DNA from: Halolamina sediminis
Lineage (GTDB): Archaea; Halobacteriota; Halobacteria; Halobacteriales; Haloferacaceae
Assembly: GCF_001282785.1 (NCBI RefSeq)
Contig: NZ_CVUA01000001.1
Coordinates: 62,001 to 126,000, forward strand
DNA length: 64,000 bases
Direction: 5' to 3'
Position 1 is the stretch's first letter. The number at the start of each line of letters is the position of its first letter. The position numbers and the translations under genes were made by a program. Below the pieces are notes generated by a model. It saw nothing but the letters and a program-made list of their open reading frames with translations, was not told the origin of the DNA and made no database searches. Positions 58,871-64,000 of the stretch are shown piece by piece.

Positions 58871-60472
58871 ATGACCGAGGACCAACCCACACCGAAGACA
58901 GACGGGGGCACCGATAGCGTATCGAGCGACGACGTCGCCCTCGACCCGTGGGGCTCCTCGACCATCGAAGACTACCCGAAGCTGTTCGAGCAGTTCGGGA
59001 TCGAGGAGTTCGACGCCGAGGAGGTGCCGGAGCCGCACTACCTGATGCGCCGCGGGGCGATCTTCGGCCACCGTGAGTACGAGCGCGTGGCGGAGGCGAT
59101 GGCCAACGACGAGCCGTTCGCGGCGCTGTCGGGGTTCATGCCGACGGGCGATCCCCACATCGGCCACAAGATGGTGTTCGACGAGCTCATCTGGCACCAG
59201 CAGCAGGGCGGCGAGGTGTACGGCCTGATCGCCGACCTCGAAGCCCACTCCGCCCGGGGGATGTCCTGGGACGAGATCGACGAGCACGCCCGGAGCTACC
59301 TGCTCTCCTTCATCGCGCTGGGGTTCGACCCCGAGGCGGGGGAGCTCTACCGCCAGTCGGACAACCGTGTGCTGCAGGATCTCGCGTTCGAGATCGGCTC
59401 GACCACGAACTTCTCGGAGTTCGAGGCGATCTACGGCTTCGGCGGCGAGACGAACGTCAGCCACATGCAGTCGGTCGTGACGCAGTTGGCGGACATCCTC
59501 TACCCCCAACTGGACGAGCCGATGCCGACGGTGATCCCGGTCGGGCCGGATCAGGACCCGCACGTCCGCTTCGCCCGCGACGCCGCCGCGCGGATGCGCT
59601 ACTTCAAAGTGACCGAGGCGTTCGCGAGCTTCGAACTCGACGACGAGGAGCGTGCGCTGTTTCGCGACCTGTACGACGCGCTGCAGGCGACCGACGACGT
59701 GGACACCGACGACCTGCGGTGTGAGGACGCCGCGGAGCGCCTCCTCGCGTTCGTCAACGATCCCGCGGCGCCCGTCGACGCCGACCCCGCGACCCGAGAC
59801 TCGCTGGTCGAGAAGCTGGAGAACGGCGGGAAGGAGCCGATCCGCCCCCGCGTGCGCTTCCTCGACCGCAACGCGAACGCGGCGGCGTTCGACGCGCTGA
59901 TAGAAGAGATCCCGGGCGAGAAGCGGCGCTACGACGCCCACATCGACAGTTTCGACCTCGACCCCGAGGCGGCCCAGGAGATCGCCCGCGAGGTCGAGAT
60001 CGAGCACGACGGCTACGGGTTCGAGGCGCCGTCGTCGATCTACCACCGCTTCATGACCGGCCTGACCGGCGGGAAGATGTCCTCCTCGATCCCTGCCTCC
60101 CACATCTCGCTGCTCGACGACCCCGAGGACGGCTACGACAAGGTGAAGTCCGCCGCGACGGGCGGCCGGACGACCGCCGAGGAGCAGCGCGAACTCGGTG
60201 GGAAGCCCGACGAGTGCCCGGTGTACGAGCTGTACGCCTACCTGCTCGCGGAGGGCGACGACGAGTTCGCGACCCGGGTGTACGAGGAGTGTGCCGAGGG
60301 CGAGCGCCTCTGTGGCGGCTGCAAGGAGCAGGCCGCCGAGTTGATGGCGGAGTTCCTCGAAGACCACCAGGAGAAGCGGGAAGAGGCGAAGGAGCTGCTC
60401 GAGGACGTGGACATCGACTTGAGCAGTGATCGGCGCGGGCTGGGCGGGCGGGAGGAAGAGGACGCGGTTTAG
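58871..60472 (+). CDS. trpS: Tryptophan--tRNA ligase
   Basis: A 533-residue class I synthetase. The HIGH motif is GDPHIGHKMVFDE and KMSKS is GGKMSSSIPAS. The Trp-binding side includes the VIPVGPDQDPHVRFARD block. Between the two signatures is a charged insertion of about 85 residues (LDDEERALFRDLYDALQ onward) typical of haloarchaeal forms. A C-terminal Cys set (CAEGERLCGGC) may hold a metal. Haloarchaea often carry two trpS genes; this is the one linked to endA. Repeat copy E begins 84 bases after the stop. Confidence 0.97.
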   Translation: MTEDQPTPKTDGGTDSVSSDDVALDPWGSSTIEDYPKLFEQFGIEEFDAEEVPEPHYLMRRGAIFGHREYERVAEAMANDEPFAALSGFMPTGDPHIGHKMVFDELIWHQQQGGEVYGLIADLEAHSARGMSWDEIDEHARSYLLSFIALGFDPEAGELYRQSDNRVLQDLAFEIGSTTNFSEFEAIYGFGGETNVSHMQSVVTQLADILYPQLDEPMPTVIPVGPDQDPHVRFARDAAARMRYFKVTEAFASFELDDEERALFRDLYDALQATDDVDTDDLRCEDAAERLLAFVNDPAAPVDADPATRDSLVEKLENGGKEPIRPRVRFLDRNANAAAFDALIEEIPGEKRRYDAHIDSFDLDPEAAQEIAREVEIEHDGYGFEAPSSIYHRFMTGLTGGKMSSSIPASHISLLDDPEDGYDKVKSAATGGRTTAEEQRELGGKPDECPVYELYAYLLAEGDDEFATRVYEECAEGERLCGGCKEQAAELMAEFLEDHQEKREEAKELLEDVDIDLSSDRRGLGGREEEDAV

Positions 60473-60556: not shown

Positions 60557-61011
60557 GCGAACACGACCGCGGAGTGAGCTCGACCACTTGTGACCGCACC
60601 GCCCCGCACAGCCCTCAGACCTCCCCAGCCGACTCACTCCCTGCGGTCGTTCGTCCTCCGAGGGAGCGGAGCTCCCTCGTGCCCTCGTTCGGTTCACTCA
60701 CGAGGACCTCGCGCGCTCGTTCGCGCACGGAGGCGTCGTGCGGGCGACCCACGCGTCGCCCGCACTGCCAGCGAGACCGCCGGTCTCGCCCTGCTCACGT
60801 CGCGCGCCAACAGCCTCAGCGGTGCGGTGGCGGTGGACGCCTCGCCGGCGCCAATCGCCGGCGTCACCAGAACGCAAAGCGTTCTGGTTGGCAGCCGAGA
60901 GTCGAAGACTCTCGGCGACGCCCGCGGGGGAGGGGTGGGGACTCGGTACTGTGCCGGACCTCGTGTCCGGCACCCTGCGGTCGCAAGTGGCCAAGCATCG
61001 AGATGCTGTTG
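60557..61011 (-). repeat. Structured dispersed element, copy E (expanded)
   Basis: The largest copy (455 bases), inverted relative to A-D, between trpS and the pheST leader. Read on the minus strand it begins CAACAGCATCTCGATGCTTG and ends with AGCTCACTCCGCGGTC, like copy B. The variable site holds a multibranch set: GCCGAGAGTC-ttc-GACTCTCGGC, CCAGAACGC-ttt-GCGTTCTGG and GCCGGCG-attgg-CGCCGGC, with GGCGTC and GACGCC able to close the first two. It also has GCGAGACC-ggc-GGTCTCGC, GTGCGGGCGAC-gcgtgg-GTCGCCCGCAC and an extra CGAGGGAG-ctccg-CTCCCTCG near the right end. Core blocks are conserved. Bases 61012-61126 hold a degraded end unit and no gene. Confidence 0.87.
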
Positions 61012-61126: not shown

Positions 61127-61155
61127 GGAACCTTTTTGCGCGCTCGGGAGGTTCC
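61127..61155 (+). promoter_or_regulatory. Promoter of the pheST leader within an inverted repeat
   Basis: CCTTTTTGCG (T run 61133-61137) is centred about 28 bases before the leader ATG at 61163. It is flanked by GGAACCT (61127-61133) and AGGTTCC (61149-61155), a 7-base inverted repeat that brackets the TATA region. The layout fits an operator at which a repressor could block TBP or TFB. Confidence 0.55.
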
Positions 61156-61162
61156 TCCGCGT

Positions 61163-61237
61163 ATGGCGCCCGACACCGCCGCCCGGACGCACCGCCACGC
61201 AGCCGACGGTCGCGGGGTCGGGTTCTTCTTCGCCTGA
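61163..61237 (+). CDS. Putative Phe-rich leader peptide of pheST
   Basis: ATG at 61163 and TGA at 61235-61237 encode 24 residues: MAPDTAARTHRHAADG, then RGVGFFFA. Three consecutive Phe codons (TTC TTC TTC) directly precede the last Ala and the stop. A promoter box at the right distance makes the peptide the first thing translated on the pheS message, and a strong hairpin starts at the base after the stop. This is the layout of bacterial attenuation leaders such as pheL. A chance short frame cannot be excluded, and no such archaeal mechanism is established to my knowledge. Confidence 0.5.
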   Translation: MAPDTAARTHRHAADGRGVGFFFA

Positions 61238-61285
61238 TCGGTCGGCGGAGCCCGGCGCGGGGCGGCCCGGGCGAAACCGACCGAG
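61238..61285 (+). promoter_or_regulatory. Hairpin after the Phe leader peptide
   Basis: TCGGTCGG pairs with CCGACCGA, and an inner GCCCGG pairs with CCGGGC. The outer stem starts at the base right after the leader stop codon, so a ribosome stalled on the Phe codons or released at the stop would change its folding. No U run follows, so it would act on translation or on antitermination of another kind. It lies about 60 bases before pheS. Confidence 0.5.
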
Positions 61286-61342
61286 CGGGCAGCACCGTTC
61301 CCCAGCGACGCCGGGGCGACCACCAAACCACACACTCACCAC

Positions 61343-62848
61343 ATGCGACTCCCCGAACGACAGGTCGCGGCCCTGCAGGCCGCGAGCGCGACCGACGCAC
61401 AGCCGATCCCCGAGCTCGCCGCCGAGGCGGGGATCGACGAGGCGGCAGCCCGGACTGCCGTCTTCGAACTGGAAGACGAGGGGCTGCTCTCCGTCGAGAG
61501 CGAGACCGAGGAGACGGTCTCGATCACCGACGAGGCCGAAACGTACCTCACCGAGGGCCTCCCGGAGGTCCGGCTCTACCGCACGGCCGTCGAGGCCGGC
61601 GCCCGCGACGAGCCGATCTCGATGGGGCAGGTCATCGGCGCCGCCGGCCTCGAAGGGCCCGAGGTCGACATCGCGCTGTCGAACTTCGCCCGCAAAGGCT
61701 ACGGCGAGATCGAGAGCGGCGAGGTGACCGCCGACCCCGACGCCGATCCCGACGCCGACCCCGAACTCGCTGCACTCGAACGGATCGACACCGGCGAGAC
61801 AGTCGAGGACGAGGGGCTGCTCGACCGGCTCGCGGAGCGCGGGCTGATCGAGCGCGAGGAACACACCGTACGCTCGGTGCTGCTGACCGACGACGGCGTC
61901 GACGCGCTGATGGCCGGCGTCGAGGCCGCCGAGACCGCCGACCGGCTCACCCCCGAGATGCTCACCTCCGGCGAGTGGCAGGAGGTGGAGTTCACCGACT
62001 ACAACGTCGAGGCCGACGCGACCGAGGCAGGCGCGGGGAAGGTTCACGTGCTCCGGCAGGCTGCCGAGCGCGTGAAGGACGTCCTCGTCGGGATGGGGTT
62101 TCAGGAGATGGACGGCCCCCACGCCGACGCCGACTTCTGGATCAACGACGCGCTGTTCATGCCCCAGGACCATCCTGCACGAACGCACTGGGACCGCTTT
62201 GCCCTGGACGTTGACCCCGTCGAGGACCTGCCCGAGGATCTCGTTCGCGCGGTCGAGAACGCCCACCGCGAGGGCGTCGGCTCGGATGGCGACGGCTACC
62301 ACTCGCCGTGGAGTGAAGATTTCGCGCGCGAGGTCGCGCTCCGCGGGCACACGACGTCGCTCTCGATGCGGTACCTCTCCGGGGAGGCCGAGGGCGAACT
62401 CGAACCGCCACAGCGCTACTTCTCGGTGCAGAAGGCGTACCGCAACGACACGATCGACGCCACGCACCTGCTGGAGTTCTTCCAGATCGAGGGCTGGGTG
62501 ATGGCCGAGGAGCTCTCGGTACGCGACCTGATGGGGACGTTCGAGGAGTTCTACGCACAGTTCGGGATTACGGACGTACAGTTCAAGCCCCACTACAACC
62601 CCTACACTGAGCCGAGCTTCGAACTGTTCGGCCGGCACCCCGAGACCGGCGAACTGATCGAGATCGGCAACAGCGGCATCTTCCGCGAGGAGGTCCTCTC
62701 GCCGCTGGGCGTCGAGTGTGACGTGATGGCTTGGGGGCTCGCGTTGGAGCGACTGGCGATGCTGTACACCGGCGCCGACGACATCCGCGACCTGCACGGC
62801 ACGCTCGCGGACCTTGAGTTCCTGCGGAACGCGGAGGTGATCTACTGA
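61343..62848 (+). CDS. pheS: Phenylalanine--tRNA ligase alpha subunit
   Basis: A 501-residue class II catalytic subunit. The N-terminal 170 residues are winged-helix tRNA-binding modules (ERQVAALQAASATD, IPELAAEAGIDEAAARTAVFEL). The catalytic core has motif 1 near GFQEMDGPHADADFWINDALFMP, motif 2 YFSVQKAYRNDTIDATHLLEFFQ (shown in parts) and motif 3 VMAWGLALERLAMLYTG. A DPDADPDADP low-complexity insert lies near residue 133. The ATG at 61343 follows CACCACATGCG. It overlaps pheT by one base (TGATG). Confidence 0.97.
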   Translation: MRLPERQVAALQAASATDAQPIPELAAEAGIDEAAARTAVFELEDEGLLSVESETEETVSITDEAETYLTEGLPEVRLYRTAVEAGARDEPISMGQVIGAAGLEGPEVDIALSNFARKGYGEIESGEVTADPDADPDADPELAALERIDTGETVEDEGLLDRLAERGLIEREEHTVRSVLLTDDGVDALMAGVEAAETADRLTPEMLTSGEWQEVEFTDYNVEADATEAGAGKVHVLRQAAERVKDVLVGMGFQEMDGPHADADFWINDALFMPQDHPARTHWDRFALDVDPVEDLPEDLVRAVENAHREGVGSDGDGYHSPWSEDFAREVALRGHTTSLSMRYLSGEAEGELEPPQRYFSVQKAYRNDTIDATHLLEFFQIEGWVMAEELSVRDLMGTFEEFYAQFGITDVQFKPHYNPYTEPSFELFGRHPETGELIEIGNSGIFREEVLSPLGVECDVMAWGLALERLAMLYTGADDIRDLHGTLADLEFLRNAEVIY

Positions 62849-64000
62849 TGCCCGTCGTCGATATCGACACCGACGAACTGCGCCGACTGACCGGCCACGA
62901 GGAGAAAGAGGACGACCAACTGAAGGAGGACCTGTTCGGCCTCGGCCTGGAGTTCGAGGGCGAGACCGAGGACGGCGATCTCCAGTTCGAGTTCGCGCCC
63001 GATCGGCTCGACCGGCTCTCCGTCGAGGGCGTCGCCCGGTCGCTGCGCTACCAGTACGGCGACGACCGCGGCGTGACCGTCCCGGACACCAACGATTCCG
63101 ACTGGACGATCGAGGTCGACCCCTCGGTCCCGGGCGAGCGCCCGTACGTCGCAGGCGCGGTCGCACGCGGGGTGGACTTGGACGAGGACGCGCTGGACTC
63201 GCTGATCCAGCTCCAAGAGAAGCTCCACGCGACGATGGGGCGCAAGCGCGCGAAAGGCGCGATCGGGATCCACGACCTCGCGATGCTCAAAGGCGAGCGC
63301 ATCGAGCAGCGCGAGATCGGCGAGGACAACGAGCTCGAACCGCCCGAGGACCTGACGCCCGTGGCCGGCGACGAGGGGCCGACCGACGTGGGCGGCCCGA
63401 CGATCACCTACCGCGGGATCGAGCCCGACGGCGACGAGTTCGTCCCGCTGGACGCCGACCGCGGGATGACCCCCGCCGAGGTGCTGACCGACCACTCGAC
63501 GGGCGAGGAGTACGCCGATCTCGTGAGCGAGTACGAGCGCTACCCCGCGATCTACGACGAGCTGGGGCTGTTTTCGTTCCCGCCGGTGATCAACGGGCAG
63601 CGGACCGAGGTCTCCACGGAGTCCCGGGAGCTGCTGATCGAGCTCACCGGTACCGACCAGTGGACGATCGACCGGATGCTCGCGATCATCTGCTACGCGC
63701 TGGACGCCCGCGGCGCGACCCTCGAAGACGTCGACGTGGTGTACGAGGACGGCGCCGCCGGCGAGCACGCGGGCGACCACCTCGTCCGGCCGGAGCTCGA
63801 CACCCGTGAGAAGACGGTCTCCCACGAGCAGATCGAAACCACACTCGGGATCGAACTGGAGATGGAGGAGGCCGTGGATCTATTCGAGCGTTCGGGGCTG
63901 GAGGCGACGACAAATCTGGGTGACGAGACGACGTACGAGGTCTCGATCCCGCCGTACCGGACCGACGTGCTCCACTCCATGGACCTCGTCGACGACGTGG
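62848..64000 (+). CDS. pheT: Phenylalanine--tRNA ligase beta subunit, 5' part
   Basis: 384 residues of the archaeal-type beta subunit are visible before the window ends. It starts MPVVDIDTDELRRLTG; then LQFEFAPDRLDRLSVEGVARSLR, an N-terminal motif, and the B3/B4 editing domain with HATMGRKRAKGAIGIHDLAM and FSFPPVINGQRTEVS. The B5 domain has just begun (TREKTVSHEQIETTLGIELEME). The start codon shares its A with the pheS stop, so the subunits are translationally coupled for equal amounts. About a third of the protein lies beyond the edge. Confidence 0.96.
   Translation, partial: MPVVDIDTDELRRLTGHEEKEDDQLKEDLFGLGLEFEGETEDGDLQFEFAPDRLDRLSVEGVARSLRYQYGDDRGVTVPDTNDSDWTIEVDPSVPGERPYVAGAVARGVDLDEDALDSLIQLQEKLHATMGRKRAKGAIGIHDLAMLKGERIEQREIGEDNELEPPEDLTPVAGDEGPTDVGGPTITYRGIEPDGDEFVPLDADRGMTPAEVLTDHSTGEEYADLVSEYERYPAIYDELGLFSFPPVINGQRTEVSTESRELLIELTGTDQWTIDRMLAIICYALDARGATLEDVDVVYEDGAAGEHAGDHLVRPELDTREKTVSHEQIETTLGIELEMEEAVDLFERSGLEATTNLGDETTYEVSIPPYRTDVLHSMDLVDDV

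Follow-up and report, generated by a model that had tools for sequence, protein, structure and literature searches.

A conserved Phe-codon leader frame and hairpin upstream of pheST as a candidate attenuation system in Halolamina sediminis and other haloarchaea

The window analyzed here is the whole 64,000-nucleotide (nt) stretch of Halolamina sediminis DNA at positions 62,001 to 126,000 of contig NZ_CVUA01000001.1 (assembly GCF_001282785.1). Toward its end, a promoter, a short reading frame ending in phenylalanine codons, and a hairpin precede pheST, which encodes phenylalanyl-tRNA synthetase. An earlier note on this DNA had suggested that the frame and hairpin might control pheST in the manner of bacterial leader peptides. 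All of its statements about the sequence proved correct, including a 24-codon frame with a box 28 bases 5' of its ATG and an end made of three Phe codons, one Ala, and a stop. The ATG lies at 61163, the encoded peptide ends in Gly-Phe-Phe-Phe-Ala, and the TGA stop occupies 61235 to 61237. The hairpin (61238 to 61284) reads TCGGTCGG-CGGA-GCCCGG...CCGGGC-GAAA-CCGACCGA and begins, as had been described, at the base directly 3' of the leader stop, with 58 nt separating it from the pheS ATG where about 60 had been given. The features are as follows.

61127 to 61138, forward strand: B recognition element (BRE)/TATA promoter box GGAACCTTTTTG of the leader transcript
61133 to 61137: TTTTT box within the promoter, centered 28 nt 5' of the leader ATG
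61163 to 61237, forward strand: candidate leaderless leader-peptide open reading frame (ORF) MAPDTAARTHRHAADGRGVGFFFA, stop included
61223 to 61231, forward strand: Phe codons TTC TTC TTC, the proposed stalling site
61238 to 61245, forward strand: 5' arm of P1 in the post-stop hairpin
61246 to 61249, forward strand: 5' side of the internal loop, CGGA (YGGA in relatives), GGA being invariant in 37 distinct sequences
61250 to 61255, forward strand: 5' arm of P2
61267 to 61272, forward strand: 3' arm of P2
61273 to 61276, forward strand: 3' side of the internal loop, GAAA, with GAA invariant and the fourth A in over 90%
61277 to 61284, forward strand: 3' arm of P1, forming 8 perfect base pairs with 61238 to 61245
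61285 to 61342, forward strand: remaining 58 nt of the pheS 5' untranslated region (UTR), which in relatives is ATG depleted and A/C rich in its last 30 nt
61343 to 62848, forward strand: pheS, phenylalanyl-tRNA synthetase alpha subunit, the gene proposed to be regulated, with its ATG at 61343
62848 to 64000, forward strand: pheT, beta subunit, an ORF starting at 62848 and open at the window end

For comparison, pheS and its flanks were taken from 7 Halolamina genomes and from 80 loci of a species collection, giving 85 loci after duplicates were removed; because these loci were picked by similarity to Halolamina PheS, the leader frequency among them is not that of all Halobacteria. An orthologous ATG leader of 24 to 29 amino acids was present upstream in 64 of the 85 non-duplicate haloarchaeal loci, with carriers in all six sampled families (Haloferacaceae, Natrialbaceae, Haladaptataceae, Natronomonadaceae, Haloarculaceae, and Halobacteriaceae on the PheS tree). 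Frame, Phe codons, and hairpin are kept together across these families, as the proposal in the earlier note required. The presence/absence pattern on the PheS tree needs about 10 changes, and at least 8, and the simplest reading would be that the leader was ancestral and was lost repeatedly. No leader was found outside Halobacteriales in a limited first look at 247 genomes of the phylum. The loci nearest to the window pheS locus that carry names are those of Halolamina pelagica and Halolamina salifodinae.

The C-terminal end of the leader is the part that stays constant. The leaders end in (G)FGFFF plus one to four residues, with the forms GFGFFFAR in Natrialbaceae, GFGFFFLTA in Haloferax, GFGFFFAA in Halorussus, GVGFFFA in Halolamina, and DAFGFFFA or eroded endings in Halorubrum, and with M-x-x-E-...-GFGFFFA as the majority consensus. 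Across the 64 leaders, 13.5% of all residues are Phe, a share that drops to 0.1% outside the last nine, and the Phe codons vary synonymously (178 TTC and 46 TTT). This confinement of Phe to the leader end, together with the synonymous variation, argues that selection acts on Phe itself and on its place in the leader. Many leaders also keep an M-x-(S/P)-E-(P/S) start ahead of a variable middle, perhaps tied to leaderless initiation.

A frame coding for a small functional protein, with its location before pheS secondary, would account for the conserved M-x-(S/P)-E N terminus, but the middle of the peptide varies in length as well as in sequence, conservation centers on the Phe run before the stop, Phe is nearly absent elsewhere, and the frame is always found at pheS, coupled to a covarying hairpin. 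A small protein is therefore a very improbable explanation. An accidental Phe run in a GC-rich intergenic stretch can practically be dismissed. When 18- to 36-codon ATG frames with at least three Phe residues, including FF, within the last nine residues were sought on both strands of the 85 loci (1,358 short ATG frames in 529 kb), 57 were found, all of them pheS leaders, and none elsewhere; the 64 orthologues refute chance by their conservation, and the expectation that such a run would be improbable by accident was well founded. A hidden Markov model (HMM) profile of the peptide likewise returned the pheS leader as the top match in each of 10 whole genomes, with E values of 4e-4 to 8e-10 and the next match anywhere at 0.027. 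In genome G000, the top match was the leader of the window (E, 1.1e-4).

Promoter placement suggests how the leader would be translated. T occurs at a frequency of 0.98 at position -28, and the box is centered at -28 in 50 of the 64 leaders, a spacing that points to a leaderless frame, with the 5' end of the mRNA expected at, or 1 to 2 bases from, the leader ATG. Leaderless mRNAs of haloarchaea have this spacing, and the leader ORF should accordingly be translated from such an mRNA. Start site data from Haloferax volcanii agree with such an upstream start. According to Table 2 of Babski et al. 2016 (PMC4983044), pheS of this organism (HVO_2948) has a 150- to 250-nt 5' UTR that contains an upstream ORF (uORF) of 26 amino acids, with an isoelectric point (pI) of 5.9 and a mass of 2,772 Da. 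As listed there, the mapped start lies 5' of the uORF and there is no additional start at pheS, so that transcription beginning downstream of the leader, the condition under which the earlier note would have abandoned its proposal, is not what that table gives. The leader MASEPKRGARASEPTTDGFGFFFLTA from a close relative has 26 amino acids, a pI of 5.94, and a mass of 2,792 Da. Phe or Trp codons, a hairpin, and attenuation go unmentioned in the relevant section and table of that paper (PMC4983044).

The hairpin is conserved too. P1, the YGGA/GAAA internal loop, and P2 were found in 62 of 66 leaders (two of the 66 being duplicates) when anchors were chosen by sequence only. Arms from the same species fit each other better than arms swapped between species, with values of 343 versus 282 ± 7 for P1 and 262 versus 172 ± 7 for P2. 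In an alignment of 37 distinct elements, 83.5% of cells were paired, compared to 64.3 ± 1.5 in a shuffle control, which leaves relatedness unremoved, and 30 to 50% in a slide control, which keeps relatedness; 11 of the 12 hairpin pairs showed compensatory changes on both sides. The pheS hairpin was the top match of covariance model R1 in all 12 genomes searched, and the best match in the genome of the window fell exactly at 61238 to 61284. Other R1 matches (E of about 0.004) were set aside, the two that were looked up both lying inside coding genes. A search of Rfam returned no family match, T-box included, and a T-box riboswitch was rejected as an explanation on the lack of a match to the T-box covariance model. 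The 4-by-4 internal loop (61246 to 61249 and 61273 to 61276) is nearly invariant and could form tandem G-A pairs or a protein site.

Regulation by the hairpin alone, with the YGGA/GAAA loop bound by a protein or small molecule and the leader having only a modulating part, is unlikely. It would explain the near invariance of the loop and the survival of the hairpin in three loci with damaged leaders (eroded in L056 and L073, frameshifted by one base in L084). It does not fit the absence of an Rfam match or the loss of the hairpin from the other loci without a leader, where promoter, frame, and hairpin are mostly all absent, and it leaves out the tight spacing to the Phe codons. The YGGA loop lies 13 to 19 nt beyond the last Phe codon, a spacing held by compensation between the ORF tail and the gap from stop to hairpin (r = -0.60). 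At roughly this separation, a ribosome holding a Phe codon in its A site would sit over the outer 5' arm of P1, and the conserved RNA structure overlaps the proposed footprint of the stalled ribosome.

The interpretation we favor, at a probability of roughly 0.7, is that 61163 to 61284 is a ribosome-mediated attenuation regulator of pheST that senses Phe-tRNA charging through the leader peptide. It is directly supported by the conserved frame, its cognate codons, the promoter spacing, the hairpin, the spacing of the hairpin from the codons, and the joint loss of these parts. From these we infer that the frame is translated, that ribosomes stall on it, which way the response runs, and that the hairpin acts on RNA polymerase rather than by hiding the pheS start. 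Transcription would start at the leader ATG, allowing the first ribosome to load on a leaderless mRNA and translate 20 codons nearly free of Phe before reaching the Phe run. With charged Phe-tRNA available, the ribosome would finish, end at the adjacent stop, and leave, so that the P1-P2 hairpin folds and pheST expression is lowered. When charged Phe-tRNA is scarce, the ribosome would stall on the Phe codons with its leading edge over the stop codon and the outer 5' arm of P1, blocking the hairpin and allowing pheST to be expressed. The hairpin could pause or terminate RNA polymerase, perhaps with FttA/aCPSF1. In folding predictions, masking by such a ribosome took the median probability of P1 from 0.37 down to 0.04.

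Several results weigh against attenuation by this route. In some species P1 is not predicted to dominate, and about a quarter of the loci lack the whole module, which must therefore be dispensable. Not one of the 64 leader-pheS spacers contains TTTT, so that the standard archaeal U-tract terminator is absent. The ribosome mask also left the predicted accessibility of the pheS start unaffected (0.60 versus 0.62). Because accessibility is unaltered, the idea that the hairpin hides the pheS start was rejected, which leaves transcription as the simplest output. As for the missing U-tract, a hairpin without a T stretch gave 59% termination in vivo at another site in H. volcanii (PMC7237163), making a U-less terminator or pause possible.

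Translational control, in which leader and hairpin govern ribosome access to the pheS start by reinitiation or scanning and stalling on Phe alters ribosome flow and not transcription, is a possible but distinctly less likely account. ATG is depleted between the leader stop and pheS in the 64 spacers (7 observed versus 27.1 ± 4.5 expected) and GTG is not, which keeps the translational route open, and both the lack of a U-tract and the A/C-rich final 30 nt ahead of pheS suit it. Mere avoidance of stray starts would also deplete ATG, however, and stalling is not predicted to alter accessibility of the pheS start. No conserved alternative antiterminator pairing was found for pheS, and an outer pairing (P0) of the stop region with sequence 3' of P1 was marginal (-11.9 versus -11.2 ± 0.3 kcal/mol).

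In most loci (e.g., L035, L067, and L071), including ones that have lost the leader module, pheS is preceded at about 25 to 55 nt by a GGAACNGNTAAC or GAAACGATAAAC block, which was not found in Halolamina. Pairing of the P1 arms with the GGAACNGNTAAC block was considered and rejected, since loci without a leader keep the block and it reads as promoter sequence close to the gene. The block most likely serves as a proximal pheS promoter, in which case many species may have one basal and one Phe-controlled promoter; in H. volcanii, the start sites tabulated include none at this position (PMC4983044). Further upstream in the window, trpS occupies 58871 to 60472, and the long intergenic region between it and the leader contains the palindromic stretches GAACGCAAAGCGTTC and CCGAGAGTCGAAGACTCTCGG at 60860 to 60935.

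A similar arrangement was found at a second synthetase gene. A divergent second trpS (trpS2) is present in 110 of 293 Halobacteriales genomes, and a short frame with at least two Trp codons precedes it in 25 of the best 30 loci, usually behind a TATA-like box. Examples are MTTAPWRWWSPASGADSPAVVVAAA, MRSALRTWRWQTPGERTVS, and MVSTSRATCWRWRSTWEVDSIAV, and the Trp motifs are WRWW, WRWQ, or CWRW (L099:1322, L100:1346, and L180 to L209). Table 2 of Babski et al. 2016 (PMC4983044) lists a 23-amino-acid uORF before the tryptophan--tRNA ligase gene HVO_A0127, and, as given there, the long-5'-UTR uORFs of H. volcanii at pheS (26 amino acids) and at HVO_A0127 match the lengths of the leaders described here. 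In most trpS2 leaders folded, the Trp codons fall inside a strong hairpin, and a conserved downstream GCTCACTCGCTTTCT could pair alternatively with the 3' arm of the hairpin, as in classical attenuators. With a Phe leader at pheS and a Trp leader at trpS2, each leader carries codons for the amino acid of its own synthetase. The search at trpC, prephenate dehydratase, and hisS in 16 genomes gave no comparable leader.

Full-text searches of open-licence papers found no published archaeal case of leader-peptide attenuation, in agreement with the earlier note, which had known of no established haloarchaeal example. It seems fairly likely that haloarchaea own a convergent form of leader-peptide control for their synthetases, whereby leaderless ORFs monitor cognate tRNA charging (Phe for pheST and Trp for trpS2) and act via U-tract-free hairpins. 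If so, archaea recruited stalling on amino acid codons independently, using leaderless mRNA and lacking the usual terminator, which would imply that transcription and translation are functionally coupled and that there is an output step not described before. With the conserved Phe leader, the question of whether archaeal ribosomes control RNA polymerase in living cells can be put to a direct test in H. volcanii, for which genetics, start site data, and ribosome profiling data exist.

Leader-peptide attenuation is a textbook bacterial mechanism, and several known systems invite comparison. T-box riboswitches lie upstream of bacterial aminoacyl-tRNA synthetase genes and sense tRNA charging, as proposed here, whereas sensing by the haloarchaeal element would need translation. 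The pheL leader of Escherichia coli pheA offers the same principle of a Phe-run peptide that senses Phe-tRNA charging, but it controls biosynthesis, and no such leader was found before haloarchaeal prephenate dehydratase in the 16 genomes. In the E. coli pheST operon, the pheM leader mediates ribosome-dependent transcription attenuation and shares with the haloarchaeal element a short ORF whose Phe codons cluster near its end, directly 5' of a hairpin and upstream of pheST. The likeness to pheL and pheM drawn in the earlier note stands for the codon logic and is otherwise incomplete: unlike pheM, the haloarchaeal leader is archaeal and leaderless from a TATA promoter, has a conserved YGGA/GAAA loop, and is followed by a single post-stop hairpin that lacks a U-tract and for which no alternative pairing was found. 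The haloarchaeal peptide is not recognizably related to that of pheM, and the two are therefore probably convergent.
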